DNA from: Mycoplasmatota bacterium
Lineage (GTDB): Bacteria; Bacillota_I; Bacilli_A; Haloplasmatales; Haloplasmataceae
Length of the DNA: 64,000 nt
NCBI GenBank assembly: GCA_018394295.1
Contig: CP074573.1
Location: forward strand, 2,777,684 to 2,841,683
Direction of reading: 5' to 3'
Shown here: one piece after another, positions 26,128 to 63,986 of the stretch
How positions within the stretch are numbered: the first letter of the stretch is position 1
Layout of the letters: the number at the start of each line of letters is the position of its first letter
The notes under the pieces: model-generated
Databases searched by the model: none
Seen by the model: only the letters and a program-made list of their open reading frames with translations
Told to the model about the DNA's origin: nothing
Program-made: the position numbers and the translations under genes

Positions 26128-26886
26128 ATGATTATAAAAAATGAAACATTATTCAATAACTTATTAAGAGATAGTGAACAAACATTTAAAGGGTGGGACT
26201 TTTCTTATTTAAATCAAAGTAGTCGAATGGTAGAATTTCCTTTATCATGGAATTATACTATTGAAGTTTTAAGAGAACTTACAGAAAGTAAATCTTTATT
26301 AGATATGGGTACAGGTGGTGGAGAGTTTCTATCGACCTTACCACTTCCTAAATACACTTGTGCTACAGAGGGATACCCACCAAATGTTCAAATCGCAAAA
26401 GATCGCTTAGAACCACTCGGTGTTCATGTTTATCAGATAGAAGATGATAATAGATTACCATTTGATGATCATTCTTTTGATTTCATAATAAATCGTCACG
26501 AAGCCTTTAGTTCAAAGGAACTAAAAAGAATACTTTTACCCAATGGATATTTTATTACCCAACAAGTGGGGGGAAAAAACGATCAAGAATTAAATAGCTT
26601 ATTAGAATCAGAAGAGAGTATCTATGCCTCATGGAACTTAGATGAAGCGATTAATAAACTACAAGATGAACATTTCACGATACTTAAACAAAAAGAAGAT
26701 ATAACAAAAACCCGATTTTATGACATTGGTGCCATTATTTATTACCTTAAAGCAATTCCTTGGCAAATTCCAGATTTCTCTATTGCAAAATATAGAAATC
26801 ATTTAATTAAAATTCATAATATGATAAAAGAAACAGGCTACTTAGATATTACTTGTCATCGTTTCTTTATCATCGCAAAAAAATAA
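26128..26886 (+). CDS. SAM-dependent methyltransferase
   Basis: This 252-residue class I methyltransferase has motif I LLDMGTGGGEF, a following acidic strand (CATEGYPPN) and a motif IV-like segment (DHSFDFIINRHEAF). The pattern resembles small-molecule methyltransferases, and the substrate is unknown. No clear ribosome site precedes the ATG, which lies 5 bp past clpP, so translation may be coupled. Its last 50 or so codons and its terminator are repeated in degenerate form 3.6 kb to the right (30330-30511). Confidence 0.88.
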   Translation: MIIKNETLFNNLLRDSEQTFKGWDFSYLNQSSRMVEFPLSWNYTIEVLRELTESKSLLDMGTGGGEFLSTLPLPKYTCATEGYPPNVQIAKDRLEPLGVHVYQIEDDNRLPFDDHSFDFIINRHEAFSSKELKRILLPNGYFITQQVGGKNDQELNSLLESEESIYASWNLDEAINKLQDEHFTILKQKEDITKTRFYDIGAIIYYLKAIPWQIPDFSIAKYRNHLIKIHNMIKETGYLDITCHRFFIIAKK

Positions 26887-26910
26887 ACGTTCATAATTGA
26901 ACGTTTATTT
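26881..26910 (+). terminator. Terminator of clpP-methyltransferase
   Basis: The perfect stem AAATAAACGTTCA/TGAACGTTTATTT overlaps the stop codon and is followed by TACTTTT. The same hairpin recurs at 30482-30511. Confidence 0.85.
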
Positions 26911-27196
26911 TACTTTTATTAATTATATTTAATAATACTTTAAAATAAGAAAACAACCCCCCTGTTTCATTCAATTTTTTTCAAAAGATTTACCACATAG
27001 ATTATTGTCTTATATTAGCAATCTAAACTTATTATATCATTTAACTACTATTTTCTTTAGATGATTATTATTTAAACAACACTAAGCAATGCAAGTACTG
27101 TTTTTATCTCTCTAGATAGTAGTAATAAAGGTACAGATAAAACCAACTACAACAAAGGTTATTGGTTAATTTAGGTTTATTTAATTGTAGGTCTTA

Positions 27197-27321
27197 TAGC
27201 CTAACCTTTTATCAATGACAGGTGTAGCAAGTTGACATATACAAAAACAATAAAAAAACATTGCCTCTGTATTTGCAACTAAGTCAGTAGTATATGACTT
27301 GATTGCAGTGGCAATGGTTTT
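27197..27321. repeat. Left arm of a perfect 125-bp inverted repeat (IR-A)
   Basis: By direct comparison this arm is the exact reverse complement of 28340-28464. Its inner half can fold as a hairpin (ATTGCC with GGCAAT outside, and a longer imperfect stem within). On the minus strand that hairpin runs into TTTTTTT, so it can end transcription of the gene inside. The outer half holds the TAGCAAGTTGAC motif shared with other copies in the window. Between the methyltransferase terminator and this arm (26911-27196) I see nothing else. Confidence 0.9.
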
Positions 27322-27361
27322 GACTTTTATGAGTATTGAAGAAAGTTTTTACATTCATACA

Positions 27362-28252
27362 TTAATTAGCTTGTGGATCAAATATTACATTATTAACATC
27401 AAAAATCTTTATGAAATTCTTTTTCTTTATATACTTACTTAACTCAAACTTATTCTTCTGAATAAATTTTATTTTCCGTTTATATTGAATTACATATTCT
27501 TCATCAAGTGCTATTTCATCTAAGACTCCAACTATGTCCTGACCGTCTATATTATAATAATAAACATCATTTATATATACATTAAAATACCCTGCCAATA
27601 CTACTTTGATAATAAAGTGCTTATTTATATTTATGTATAAGCAATTACCATTAATAGTACATTTGTTGTCATAATAAGGGTCTAAATCATAAACTAGTTC
27701 TTCCAATGAAAGTGGACCTGCTGGATGTCTTGATACAAACATTTCAATAAAGTACTCATCTAGTATTGATTTGTTATTGAAATATTTAGCTATTAAATTA
27801 AATGTAAGCACCTTACTTTTTTTAAGTGTAAAAAACTTGCCTTTTTGTCTTCTGTTTAAGAGCAAATGTGCTAAATCATAATAAATATCACCTTTATTTG
27901 GTTTGATATTCTCAAGCATTTGATACCCTAAATCTTCATATTGATCTTTAATCATAAATCCATGGAGTATTAAAGTATAGGCAGTGAAAAAATAACTTTT
28001 TAAAGTATAATTATTTTCTTTTACTACAGAATCAATATACTTAGACCATGTATCTTCATAAAAATCAATATCATAATTCACATTACCGTATATACAGCCA
28101 CCTTCAATATATATGTACCAAGCATATACAATAATAGTAGCCAGTATATCATCGTCATTATTAATTGAATACTTACTAATCAAATAATTAATTATTGACA
28201 TGAAATCTTTTTTATTTTCATAGTCCTCAATTACTTCATCAAAATAAAGCAC
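27362..28252 (-). CDS. Hypothetical protein carried in an inverted-repeat cassette
   Basis: I do not recognise this protein of about 296 residues. It is soluble, rich in Tyr, Asp, Asn and Ile, with no signal peptide. It seems to have an N-terminal helical part (residues 1-150) and a C-terminal mixed part, and SRHPAGPLSLEELVYDLDPYYD is its most distinctive segment. The GTG start at 28252 has GGGGTGG about 7 nt upstream; the ORF could be read 22 codons farther. It is the only gene between two perfect 125-bp inverted repeats. The size, composition and neighbourhood recall immunity or defence genes of polymorphic-toxin islands, but no homology proves it. Confidence 0.65.
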   Translation of the reverse strand: MLYFDEVIEDYENKKDFMSIINYLISKYSINNDDDILATIIVYAWYIYIEGGCIYGNVNYDIDFYEDTWSKYIDSVVKENNYTLKSYFFTAYTLILHGFMIKDQYEDLGYQMLENIKPNKGDIYYDLAHLLLNRRQKGKFFTLKKSKVLTFNLIAKYFNNKSILDEYFIEMFVSRHPAGPLSLEELVYDLDPYYDNKCTINGNCLYININKHFIIKVVLAGYFNVYINDVYYYNIDGQDIVGVLDEIALDEEYVIQYKRKIKFIQKNKFELSKYIKKKNFIKIFDVNNVIFDPQAN

Positions 28253-28339
28253 CTTATCACCACCCCTTATATTAAAGTATACCATATTATGGGATTTATA
28301 AATATATCTACAATTCAATAATATATGCTAGAAATAATG

Positions 28340-28464
28340 AAAACCATTGCCACTGCAATCAAGTCATATACTACTGACTTAGTTGCAAATACAGAGGCAA
28401 TGTTTTTTTATTGTTTTTGTATATGTCAACTTGCTACACCTGTCATTGATAAAAGGTTAGGCTA
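28340..28464. repeat. Right arm of the perfect 125-bp inverted repeat (IR-A)
   Basis: This is the exact reverse complement of 27197-27321. The hairpin and T run point outward on the plus strand, so each arm carries an outward-facing terminator-like hairpin and the cassette is insulated at both ends. Confidence 0.9.
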
Positions 28465-28530
28465 CTTGACCATTGAAGATTAATAGATGTTAAAAGCACC
28501 TTATCCAAACCAGTGTTGGTTTATTTTTTT

Positions 28531-28755
28531 CTAAAATTTTTTTGTTAAAGGATAACCACTGCTTTTACTAATTATTGAGTCTATATTACAATAAGGATAC
28601 AGTGCTGTATCACCATCTCTATCTTCAATCCAACCTGTAATTCCTTTTGGATTAAAGATTTCAAGACAATAAAAACATCCACACAAATTATCCTTTTCTA
28701 ACATTTTCCTATTTGATGTACAAAATTGATGTGCTGCAATTGGATTTTCTTTCAA
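28531..28755 (-). CDS. Small zinc-ribbon-like cytoplasmic protein
   Basis: The 74-residue product has CGCFYC in the middle and a YPYCNIDSII segment after it, ending in SSGYPLTKKF. This resembles a family of short cytoplasmic proteins with the pattern CxxC...EI..W.D...TALCPxCGIDSVIG..SGYPI, usually about 100 residues. Here the second Cys pair is reduced to one Cys (YPYC), so metal binding may be lost. The TTG start has a strong GGGGGGGAG ribosome site 6 nt upstream. The gene lies between the two repeat-flanked units. A hairpin AAACCAGTGTTGGTTT at about 28508 with a T run on the plus strand lies just past it. Confidence 0.6.
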   Translation of the reverse strand: MKENPIAAHQFCTSNRKMLEKDNLCGCFYCLEIFNPKGITGWIEDRDGDTALYPYCNIDSIISKSSGYPLTKKF

Positions 28756-28859
28756 TTTTATCTCCCCCCCCAATATGAGGTTTGTATATATAAATTTTAA
28801 CATAATCTTCCAATTAATACCTACATCTCTTCTAATTTTTCAATGTTGCTACTTATAAC

Positions 28860-28965
28860 ATGACACCAATAGGATGTATAGCAAGTTGACCTATGTATTC
28901 ACAATAAAAAACCATTGCCTGTGTTTGAGCAACTGAGATGATGTAGATGGTTGCAAGTGTCAATA
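28860..28965. repeat. Left copy of diverged inverted repeat IR-B
   Basis: This is related to IR-A: it has AGCAAGTTGAC, then CAATAAAAAACCATTGCC and a hairpin-like region. The segment 28930-28959 matches the reverse complement of 30188-30217 at 27 of 30 positions. The 30 bases at 28867-28896 match the reverse complement of 63805-63834 at 29 of 30 positions. Confidence 0.75.
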
Positions 28966-29000
28966 GTATTTTATATATACTAAATAAATTTAATATTATT

Positions 29001-30062
29001 TCACTGATCATGTAATTTTCCTTTGATATCAAAAGGGTAAATAAACCCATGACTCCATGTACCAACTAATATTAAAGTATCATCAGGACTAAATGAAACA
29101 TAGCATGTATATTGATTTTCAATTTGATCTAATAATTTTAAAGTTGCTAAATCATATATCTTGATTCTATTGGTTGTTGCTACAGCCAAATATTTACCAC
29201 CATTAGAAATATTAAAATGTTTAATGTTCCCATCTAATGAAATTTCAATCGCGTTCTTTTCATAAATTTCCTTTAAAGTTTTAACTTTTTCTTCATTTTG
29301 ATTTAACTTTTCTCTAAGTTTTTTAGATGAGTTCAAAACATCGAAAAAACTTATTTTAGTTGTATTTAATGATAAAGGGCTTAACTTATTCAGTATTTTT
29401 CTGTAGTTGTTAGATATAAAAAGAATATTTTTACTTGCTAAACTATTAACAATAAATTTTTTAGTTAATCCATGATATATGAAAGTGTTGAAATCATGCT
29501 TTAAATCTATTCTTTTGAACTTGCTTTGATTTTCATCATATTCAACTACAAACTCTACATTTCTAAACTTACCTCTTTCAAATCCAGTAAATACATATTT
29601 ATCTTTTTCACTAATATACCGCGCACCATTAAATACGCAATTCTCAGGACTGTAGATTATTTCAGTTTCTCCACTTTCAATATTTATCTTCGAAATATAT
29701 CCCAATAATTCATTTGTATAAACTGTATTGTAAATAAACTTATTATCTTTTGAAAAACAGAATTCCCCATCTTGTGGTTGTCTTGTTTTTCTAATATATA
29801 TTTTATTTATTAAATTCATGTTTTCTAAGTCATATACAACAAACTTGCGTTCTGCACTCTTTGACACTAATCTTTTACTATCAGATGAAAATTTAATTTG
29901 ATTAGCATGTTTTACATCTTTAAATACTGCTATTTGATCAAAAGTTATTGTGTCATGTATATATATTGATGCTCCACTAGTTCTTGCTATATATTTACTG
30001 TCATTTGACATTATGATTTTATACGATTTATTGAATTTTTTAATATATTCATCACTGTTCAT
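29001..30062 (-). CDS. WD40-like beta-propeller protein
   Basis: This 353-residue soluble protein has several repeats of the type YIARTSGASIYIHD...F, IKFSSDSKRLVSKSAERKFVVYDLE and YLAVATTNRIKIYDLATLKLLDQIE. These are the strand patterns of WD40 or YVTN propellers, about six to seven blades. A charged helical insertion lies near residues 250-275. No signal or catalytic residue is visible, so a binding or scaffold role is likely. The gene begins at an ATG with GGGGATAGGG upstream and lies between two diverged inverted repeats. Its function in this block is unknown. Confidence 0.7.
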   Translation of the reverse strand: MNSDEYIKKFNKSYKIIMSNDSKYIARTSGASIYIHDTITFDQIAVFKDVKHANQIKFSSDSKRLVSKSAERKFVVYDLENMNLINKIYIRKTRQPQDGEFCFSKDNKFIYNTVYTNELLGYISKINIESGETEIIYSPENCVFNGARYISEKDKYVFTGFERGKFRNVEFVVEYDENQSKFKRIDLKHDFNTFIYHGLTKKFIVNSLASKNILFISNNYRKILNKLSPLSLNTTKISFFDVLNSSKKLREKLNQNEEKVKTLKEIYEKNAIEISLDGNIKHFNISNGGKYLAVATTNRIKIYDLATLKLLDQIENQYTCYVSFSPDDTLILVGTWSHGFIYPFDIKGKLHDQ

Positions 30063-30169
30063 TGTATCCCTATCCCCTTATTTAAACTGTACATATACTT
30101 ATTTTTTTACCATGTTTTACTCATTTATTATAACATAAAAAATTAACATAGTAGCCACAAAAATAAACT

Positions 30170-30300
30170 AATAAGTAACATATTGCCCACTTACAACCAT
30201 CTACATTATCTCAGTCGCTCATATATAGGCAATGTTTTTTTATAATTCCAATTAGTCAGCTTACAATACATGGTATTGATAGATAGTTAGCCAATAGATA
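30170..30300. repeat. Right copy of diverged inverted repeat IR-B
   Basis: This is inverted relative to 28860-28965 and similar throughout, best in the hairpin region (GGGCAAT/ATTGCC with TTTTTTT on the plus strand). Here the hairpin is better kept than in the left copy. Together the two frame the beta-propeller gene, as IR-A frames its gene. Confidence 0.7.
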
Positions 30301-30329
30301 AAAATATTGGTTTATTCTTGAGTTTCATT

Positions 30330-30511
30330 GTTCCATTATCTATTACCTGAAAGCTATTCCTTGGCAAATTCCTGATTTTTCGGTTTAAAAATATAGAAAT
30401 CAATTAATTAAAATTCATAAAATGATACAAGAAATAAGATACTTAGATATTACTTGTCATCGTTTCTTTATCATTGCAAAAAAATAAACGTTCTTGATTG
30501 AACGTTTATTT
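30330..30511 (+). pseudogene. Degenerate second copy of the methyltransferase 3' end and terminator
   Basis: The sequence parallels 26732-26910, including CCTTGGCAAATTCC, CTTAGATATTACTTGTCATC and the terminal hairpin. Aligned without gaps it is clearly homologous, with point differences. One change gives TAA in CGGTTTAA, so it is not coding. It marks the right edge of the accessory block. Confidence 0.85.
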
Positions 30512-30532
30512 TACTTTTATAAATTATATTTT

Positions 30533-61924: not shown

Positions 61925-61972
61925 TGGTGGTTCGGGGCAGAATAGAACTTCTGACACAATGATTTTCAGTCC
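61925..61972 (-). pseudogene. Degenerate 3' fragment of tRNA-Phe (probable att scar)
   Basis: The 48 bases match the 3' part of tRNA-Phe at 63911-63958 at 44 positions: TGGTGGTTCGGGGCAGAAT, then changes around GAACT and AATGATTTTCAGTCC. The rest of the tRNA is missing. A terminator-like hairpin (ATTTACTT/AAGTAAAT) lies just to the left (61889-61909), as would follow a real tRNA gene. Confidence 0.85.
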
Positions 61973-61989
61973 AACATTGCTTATTAATA

Positions 61990-62367
61990 TTATTCAACAT
62001 GTTCAAACTCAATAATATTTCTTAAACGCTCAGGCAATCGCTTTATCTTATCTACAGAAATGTCACCATATGGGGTTTTTATTAAAGATCCCTCACTAAC
62101 AAAAAACATAAAGAATACTAATCTAGAAGGCTTTACTGCTTGTTCCATATTTCCATAAATATCTGATATTCTATTTAAACCATTTTTATCTAAAAACTGC
62201 TCTAAATATGGTGATTGAGATTCTATTTGTTTTATATTTTTTTCATAAAGGTAAAATTCGTTAAACCTTATTTCAGTTGATAATTCATCAATAGTTAATT
62301 CAACTAGTACTTTATCTTTATCAAATTCATAAACTCCTAATATATTCATATCTTTATTTTCAAACAC
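61990..62367 (-). CDS. Hypothetical protein in the tRNA-Phe islet
   Basis: I do not recognise this 125-residue acidic soluble protein. It has early beta strands (LGVYEFDKDKVLVELTIDE) and a helical later part. Its size and composition recall immunity proteins. The GTG start has GAGGAG 8 nt upstream. It diverges from the LRR gene and lies within the islet. Confidence 0.55.
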   Translation of the reverse strand: MFENKDMNILGVYEFDKDKVLVELTIDELSTEIRFNEFYLYEKNIKQIESQSPYLEQFLDKNGLNRISDIYGNMEQAVKPSRLVFFMFFVSEGSLIKTPYGDISVDKIKRLPERLRNIIEFEHVE

Positions 62368-62544
62368 ACAACCATCTCCTCAAGTATATCTTGTCATATA
62401 TTTATAATAAAAACCTTCCTTACTATTAACTATTACATTTATGTACAATATCCATAAATTATGTTATATGTAAAGTATTTGTTAATAATGTGGTATAATA
62501 TGGTATATGGTAATTCATGTTTACTTATCAAGGGGGATAACTAT

Positions 62545-63672
62545 ATGTTTCAAGATAATCGATTAAAAAAGTATGTTTATAATGTTCTAAAAAAAGACTC
62601 CAATTCTACTATTACATTAGAAGAATGTCAAAGTATAACAGAACTCGATTTAAGTAATAAAGGGATAAGGTCTTTAGAGGGGTTACAATATTTTATTAAC
62701 ATGAAATCATTAAATCTAAGAGATAATAAAATTTCTGACTTATCTCCAATAAAAAATGCTTTGAAGCTAGAGGCTTTGTCATTTATAAATACAAAAATAG
62801 ATAAACTAGATGATATTAGTGGATTAGTTAATTTAAAGATACTATATATAAGCTCAAATATTAAAGATTTAAAACCAATATCCAATTTATTTAATCTTGA
62901 GGAATTATATGGATTTGAGACTTCAATTAAGAATTTAAACCCTATTAGAGATTTGAAGACATTAAAACACTTAATACTCCCTCTTTCTAATGTAAGTGAT
63001 ATATCACCAATCATTAATCTAGATAGTTTAAAATCATTAATATTAGAAGGTAAGAGAATCAAAGAACAACAGTTATTGCTTGAATTTAAATCTCTTAAAT
63101 TGGTATGTGCCAATGACCTAACAAAAAAGATTATTTCAGACTTAGAAGCAATAAATTGTGAATATTCTCCTAGTTACCTTTTTGTAGATAAATTAGAATC
63201 TATAGATGAACAGGATGAAAAACTTAGTGGTTGTGCTTTCTTTTTGAAATCTAAAGATTTAGAAACACCAATTGCTATTACCGCATTTGGGTTTGTCTTT
63301 ACTTTAGGACTTCTAATATACGGTATAGTTGATAACACTTTGCACAATACCATTCTTATAAGAACAGCTCCATTAATCCTTTTTAGTTTATTAGGATTAG
63401 CACTTCTACTTATGATGAATTATAGCATTTGTATGTATGATGATTACTTAATTTATAAAAATCCTTTATTAAAAAGGACAATAAAATATATAGATATAAA
63501 GTCATTAAAATATAAACATAGACAAAGTTTAAAGAATGTGGGTATAAGCATTAACATAAAAATGAAATTGCCAATATACATTGATTTATGGCATGTTAAA
63601 CCTTACAAAGAAAAAGCCTTTGTAAAGATTGTAAAGGAACTCACAAAACTAAAAGTTAAGAACCATAAATAA
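62545..63672 (+). CDS. Leucine-rich-repeat membrane protein
   Basis: This 375-residue protein has a leucine-rich repeat region (residues about 25-190: ITELDLSNKGIRSLEGL, MKSLNLRDNKISDLSPI and others, internalin-like spacing), then a linker. Two membrane helices follow (AITAFGFVFTLGLLIYGIV and LILFSLLGLALLLMMNY), then a cytoplasmic PH-like end (YLIYKNPLLKRTIKYIDIKSLKY). There is no signal peptide, so the LRR part may be cytoplasmic or flipped. The start at 62545 has AAGGGGGAT 6 nt upstream; the open frame begins 28 codons earlier. It may be an intracellular sensor; the role is unknown. Confidence 0.75.
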   Translation: MFQDNRLKKYVYNVLKKDSNSTITLEECQSITELDLSNKGIRSLEGLQYFINMKSLNLRDNKISDLSPIKNALKLEALSFINTKIDKLDDISGLVNLKILYISSNIKDLKPISNLFNLEELYGFETSIKNLNPIRDLKTLKHLILPLSNVSDISPIINLDSLKSLILEGKRIKEQQLLLEFKSLKLVCANDLTKKIISDLEAINCEYSPSYLFVDKLESIDEQDEKLSGCAFFLKSKDLETPIAITAFGFVFTLGLLIYGIVDNTLHNTILIRTAPLILFSLLGLALLLMMNYSICMYDDYLIYKNPLLKRTIKYIDIKSLKYKHRQSLKNVGISINIKMKLPIYIDLWHVKPYKEKAFVKIVKELTKLKVKNHK

Positions 63673-63803
63673 AATTGTATCCACTTAGTAAATTTAAAGT
63701 TTATTAAGAGGATTTTTTTATCTTATAATATTATAAGGAGATGAGATTCCCACAATTTATCTATACATTTTCATTAATCCAACTTTATTTTTGTGTGCTT
63801 TTT

Positions 63804-63844
63804 AACATAGGTCAACTTGCTACACATCCTATTGATGCTATGTT
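63804..63844. repeat. Repeat copy shared with the 28-kb cassettes
   Basis: AACATAG (63804-63810) and CTATGTT (63838-63844) frame a core. 63805-63834 equals the reverse complement of 28867-28896 at 29 of 30 positions. It is thus a dispersed repeat that links the islet to the cassette block. Confidence 0.8.
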
Positions 63845-63879
63845 AGACACGGACAACCATTAAAAATATATAACAAAAA

Positions 63880-63896
63880 AAGCCCAATTAGGGCTT
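63880..63896 (-). terminator. Terminator of tRNA-Phe
   Basis: AAGCCC and GGGCTT pair just past the tRNA, with TTTTTTGTT following on the minus strand. Confidence 0.75.
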
Positions 63897-63910
63897 TATT
63901 AATTACAAAA

Positions 63911-63986
63911 TGGTGGTTCGGGGCAGAATCGAACTGCCGACACAAGGATTTTCAGTCCTTTGCTCTACCGACTGAGCTACCGAACC
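63911..63986 (-). tRNA. tRNA-Phe (GAA)
   Basis: This 76-nt gene has acceptor GGTTCGG/CCGAACC, anticodon loop CTGAAAA with anticodon GAA, and an encoded CCA. Its 3' half recurs in degraded form at 61925-61972. Confidence 0.96.

Follow-up and report, generated by a model that had tools for sequence, protein, structure and literature searches.

The analysed window, a stretch of 64,000 nucleotides from a Mycoplasmatota bacterium, contains a single-gene cassette that forms one of the modules in a 3.4-kb island (26930–30330) at the 3′ end of a methyltransferase gene. In three islands of this genome, modules lie between inverted copies of a single strain-specific repeat, termed the arm in the following. 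In a reading that we hold to be about as probable as its opposite, the modules of these integrase-less islands are insulated, resemble orphan immunity genes and are reshuffled, through a putative mechanism of movement, by recombination between the repeats.

The island at the methyltransferase gene

Both ends of the island carry direct repeats of 202 bp, 90% identical and with an identical core of 35 bp (Table 1). In the two relatives G001 and G007, clpP, the methyltransferase gene and a 131-aa ORF are adjacent, which represents the empty site, and in the present genome 3.4 kb lie between two methyltransferase 3′ ends. An earlier note on this DNA had recognised the cassette but overlooked the larger island together with its direct repeats of 202 bp and its empty site. 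The arms recur beyond the cassette, and the actual unit is larger.

Table 1 Features of the two islands in the window (positions refer to the window)
Feature	Position	Strand	Remarks
Target gene, SAM methyltransferase	26128–26886	+	Intact
Left direct repeat	26729–26930	+	Intact methyltransferase 3′ end and its terminator; left island boundary
Arm A1	27190–27328	+	Conserved box (outer) and two-way terminator-like hairpin (inner); exact 125 bp, 27197–27321
Module A gene	27362–28318	−	318 aa; function unknown; true start likely slightly inside
Arm A2	28333–28471	−	Copy of A1, inverted; exact 125 bp, 28340–28464
90-aa gene between modules A and B	28531–28803	−	phrog_30788
Arm B1	28850–28972	+	Diverged copy
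Module B gene	29001–30062	−	Beta-propeller/WD40-like protein, 353 aa
Arm B2	30174–30293	−	Most diverged copy
Right direct repeat	30330–30531	+	Remnant of the same gene end, stop-interrupted; right island boundary
tRNA-Phe 3′ fragment	61926–61976	−	Far end of the 2-kb island at tRNA-Phe 63911–63986
LRR-protein gene	62461–63672	+	In the tRNA-Phe island of the window
Half arm E	63803–63862	−	Box without hairpin; adjoins tRNA-Phe

The 318-aa protein of module A consists of a helical N-terminal part and a small C-terminal domain, which is common to a 258-aa protein in another family. Searches against Pfam, NCBIfam, PHROGs, PADLOC and PDB gave no match, immunity families included, and no homologues were retrieved from phages, plasmids or viral contigs; a second match of the protein was rejected as spurious. 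AlphaFold, run without relatives, yielded no good structure (pLDDT 40). An immunity role of this gene is only an extrapolation. For the 90-aa gene, a relative annotated as ‘cytoplasmic protein’ was found on Priestia plasmids.

Structure of the arms

Inverted-repeat comparison within the 64-kb window gave 96% complementarity of A1 and A2 over 139 nt, with an exact part of 125 bp for which the chance probability is negligible. The two exact copies enclose one ORF (27362–28318) and no transposase, as the earlier note had stated, and its description of an outward hairpin followed by T7 in each arm was likewise borne out. Each arm is composed of a conserved box of ~50 bp on the outside and the hairpin on the gene side, which is preceded by an A-run and followed by a T-run. 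Read outwards, both arms of pair A give the stem CATTGCC...GGCAATG, then T7, with a folding score of z = −3.3 to −4.8 against shuffles; those of B1 and B2 fold weakly when read outwards (z about −0.9 against shuffles). Since the inward strand has the same stem, then T4, the hairpin is two-way. It was missing from a simple terminator scan because its loop is too long. No family match for the arm was obtained in Rfam. RNAalifold on the covariance-model alignment returned little covariation, so an RNA function beyond that of a terminator is unsupported.

Hairpins of this kind, flanked on either side by an A-run and a T-run, could be ordinary duplicated two-way terminators, i.e. strain-specific intergenic repeats spread by duplication in islands and without any role in mobility; the lack of a recombinase in the islands and the independent decay of the copies are in line with this. 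Such an origin leaves the strict inverted pairing around genes unexplained, and the box, the core of which is semi-palindromic (GGTCAA...TTGACC), is well conserved over ~50 bp although it lies outside the terminator. We regard this origin as quite improbable. In the modular reading introduced at the outset, the arm hairpins would stop transcription in both directions and make each module an insulated unit, which could sit anywhere and leave its neighbours undisturbed.

That the inverted arms make module A an invertible gene, one of the readings in the earlier note, is very improbable. Perfect inverted repeats of 125 bp can recombine, which would also keep the arms identical; however, the same terminator is present at both ends, a promoter-like stretch, TGGTATACT (about 28275–28283, by eye only), lies inside module A, and no invertase is encoded nearby. 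An inversion of module A should leave expression unchanged, because the arms are symmetrical and the promoter-like stretch is internal.

Distribution and divergence of the arm family

The genome (2 contigs, 3.29 Mb) was searched with the arms as well as with a covariance model derived from their copies. The model gave nine matches at E ≤ 2.2e-5, spread over three places of this one genome, namely eight copies and the box-only copy at 63803–63862. Altogether the family numbers eight copies and two half copies, distributed over three integrated islands; the arms are found around different genes and not only at the cassette. Their order is A1+, A2−, B1+, B2− in the window island and C1+, C2−, D1+, D2− in an island that extends across the contig start, the third location being that of half copy E beside the tRNA-Phe of the window. 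The arms form four inverted pairs, each enclosing one or more genes, and both multi-arm islands show the orientation + − + − (p about 0.008 if all eight orientations were random). One arm is split over the contig ends (end of L026, start of L009) and reads as a single arm, which suggests that contig C1 is circular. A hairpin-only copy was located at L009:1990–2089 and a truncated box, by eye, at L009:11480; the copies that retain the box or the hairpin alone indicate breakpoints that would lie inside the arms.

No arms were found in seven other genomes of the family (search and covariance model), nor in 50,697 phages, 72,556 plasmids and viral contigs. An exact 19-mer of the arm had three scattered matches in the genomes of 85,000 species, about the chance expectation; the arm model picked up one of them only, and weakly (L033, E 0.09). 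Weak matches of the model in G001 and G003 were rejected as ordinary terminators.

The hairpins are 100% identical in pair A and 58–84% identical among the other copies. In the island across the contig start (tRNA-Phe#1), arms of the same orientation (C2/D2 82%, C1/D1 73%) are more alike than inverted partners (C1/C2 69%, D1/D2 64%), which fits duplication or exchange of module pairs through direct repeats. In pairs A (100%) and B (84%), the partners are closer to each other than to other copies; this would fit gene conversion between inverted copies and, equally, a transposon with matched ends. The earlier note's statement that the neighbouring copies have diverged holds for 28850–28972 and 30174–30293 and for further copies elsewhere on the chromosome, with hairpin parts 58–82% alike, and the recent duplication or gene conversion that it proposed fits the 125-bp identity as against 58–84%.

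Matched ends would be expected of a non-autonomous transposon of the MIC/MITE-with-passenger kind, with the arms as terminal inverted repeats and the transposase elsewhere. Perfect inverted arms around one passenger gene, no transposase, several members in the genome, the likeness of partners in A and B, and outer ends ATTGTA/ATTGAA, seen at pair A only and possibly an imperfect target duplication, agree with it. Yet no target duplication was seen for C1/C2 and no exact one at all, and the outer limit of similarity varies among the copies, which have no clean common outer end. Copies are moreover confined to islands at integrase-type sites, box and hairpin are found separately (63803–63862 and L009:1990–2089, respectively), and no transposase-bearing element with these ends was detected in the genome, seven relatives, 50,697 phages and 72,556 plasmids. 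Consequently, a transposon, which the earlier note had considered, gains little from the comparison and is unlikely; a known transposon was tested as the source of the arms as well, and no insertion sequence bearing such ends turned up.

Islands at tRNA-Phe genes and their gene content

At both tRNA-Phe sites, a displaced 3′ fragment of 47–51 bp lies at some distance from the intact tRNA, 2 kb in the window (61926–63911) and about 14 kb at the other site. The orthologous tRNA-Phe of G001 harbours an inovirus-like prophage of 12 kb that brings a tyrosine integrase, and a displaced tRNA fragment of 52 bp accompanies it; with an integrase and a fragment of the same kind at this site, tRNA-Phe is therefore a real attB. 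The G001 prophage (L105; G001 C39:3000–18500) encodes Rep_trans, an ATPase-like protein and the tyrosine integrase. The larger tRNA-Phe island was entered by ordinary insertion sequences. An ISL3-like element (L026:9120–10620), situated between tRNA-Phe and arm C1, is associated with an 8-bp ATAAATTT duplication.

Among the island genes are those for Imm26 (1e-10), DMP19-like (3e-7), LRR and WD40-like proteins, the first three in the tRNA-Phe islands, which suggests that they are putative orphan immunity genes. In the tRNA-Phe#1 island, L009:4079–5044 encodes a 321-aa protein with the Imm26 domain at its N-terminus. Each of three short genes of module C is followed by a copy of the tRNA-Trp anticodon arm (copies at L009:631–647, 1139–1155 and 1690–1706), with 14–32 nt matching the genome's own tRNA-Trp. 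These copies resemble attachment cores, in the form of direct repeats, that separate single-gene units. A tRNA-Trp motif in a viral contig was rejected, being part of a phage tRNA gene cluster.

Recombinases and possible modes of movement

None of the seven PF00589 matches of the genome falls in the islands, and the methyltransferase and tRNA-Phe islands are hence integrase-less or decayed at best. Elsewhere in the genome, XerC, XerD and a 291-aa integrase (53% identical to the G001 tRNA-Phe integrase) are encoded. The genome's own inovirus-like prophage is integrated at tRNA-Leu(caa) (L117:6676–19000, corresponding to contig C1:2336675–2349000); its integrase, 53% identical to that of the G001 tRNA-Phe prophage, could act in trans.

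For the reading of reshuffled modules, the following course is proposed. The islands would have been placed by tyrosine integrases no longer present or operating from another location, and each module would carry a single accessory gene, immunity-like in several cases. Modules would be gained, lost and exchanged via recombination between the repeats: arms in direct orientation may exchange a module pair, and inverted arms may invert or gene-convert. For an exchange of modules, arms or boxes in direct orientation are required. The perfect identity of pair A would stem from recent gene conversion or duplication.

Alternatively, the box could be the recognition site of a trans-acting recombinase and exchange could occur at the box, as in the dif modules of Acinetobacter; we consider this possible, with clearly subordinate weight. 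The boxes alternate in orientation with genes between them, as in dif modules (PMC13141974), the conserved box with its semi-palindromic core lies outside the hairpin and exists without it (63803–63862), and XerC, XerD and the 291-aa integrase are at hand. On the other hand, the hairpin is present on one side of the box only, the identity of pair A spans the entire arm, beyond a core, and the arms are no more similar to the genome's own dif than shuffled sequence. A candidate for this dif was located at contig C1:1277345; a Xer/dif site in the arms (28-bp XerC-spacer-XerD) was rejected, its best own-dif match being no better than shuffles (p 0.19–0.94). Arm C2 compared with the dif of another genus gave p 0.002, with the match outside the conserved box.

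A new cassette system in the full sense, with self-insulated single-gene modules, a trans-acting recombinase and an orphan immunity repertoire in integrase-less islands, is doubtful. Among the three readings offered by the earlier note, ‘new cassette type’ came closest, given the four inverted pairs around different genes. If the modules move, a Gram-positive-type bacterium would collect immunity genes one at a time in an integron-like manner, and the recombination ends would themselves insulate transcription. Should homologous recombination alone be at work, the arrangement still shows how modules delimited by repeats make up small integrase-less islands at tRNA-Phe and a methyltransferase gene.

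Relation to known systems

Mobile insertion cassettes consist of inverted repeats around a passenger gene and lack a transposase. The same traits link the present modules to MIC231 of Bacillus cereus (cited in PMC6542083). They differ from it in that neither an insertion sequence sharing their ends nor a clean target duplication was found; ends shared with an autonomous element, a feature of MICs and MITEs, were found neither in the genome nor in relatives, phages or plasmids.

Integron gene cassettes are likewise single-gene units, and the outer box starts with GCCTAAC/GTCTAAC, fitting RYYYAAC. In contrast to integron cassettes, the modules have arms inverted on both sides, no paired GTTRRRY in the same arm and no integron integrase. 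An attC site (paired RYYYAAC...GTTRRRY) was rejected by inspection, with one such box per arm, and no tested protein reached the TIGR02249 cut-off for an integron integrase (265 bits; best 143).

Acinetobacter dif (pdif) modules (PMC13141974, PMC11705084) also hold one to few genes between inverse, alternating sites, but the arms described here are not dif-like, are much longer (~140 bp), carry a two-way terminator and belong to chromosomal islands. The rAID arrays of Bacteroidales (PMC12247911) resemble the islands in their short, probably orphan-immunity genes and conserved intergenic motifs. They differ from the present case, where the host is outside Bacteroidales and probably belongs to Bacilli, its class including Mycoplasma-sized genomes, the genes are not all co-oriented, the motifs are inverted pairs and no recombinase stands at the array; the tyrosine recombinase at the head of a rAID array is absent from the islands. 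Matches to immunity families are here limited to Imm26 and DMP19-like.

Islander-type islands at tRNA genes and gene 3′ ends (PMC4383910) likewise combine an intact target with a displaced 3′ fragment and have empty sites in relatives. Target 3′-end direct repeats at both ends are present here (202 bp at the methyltransferase gene, 47–51-bp fragments at tRNA-Phe), as is the empty site at the methyltransferase gene in G001 and G007. Unlike Islander-type islands, those described here contain no integrase, and their interior is split into modules by inverted repeats. This strain-specific module architecture in integrase-less islands is real, and it represents a variant of known island biology.
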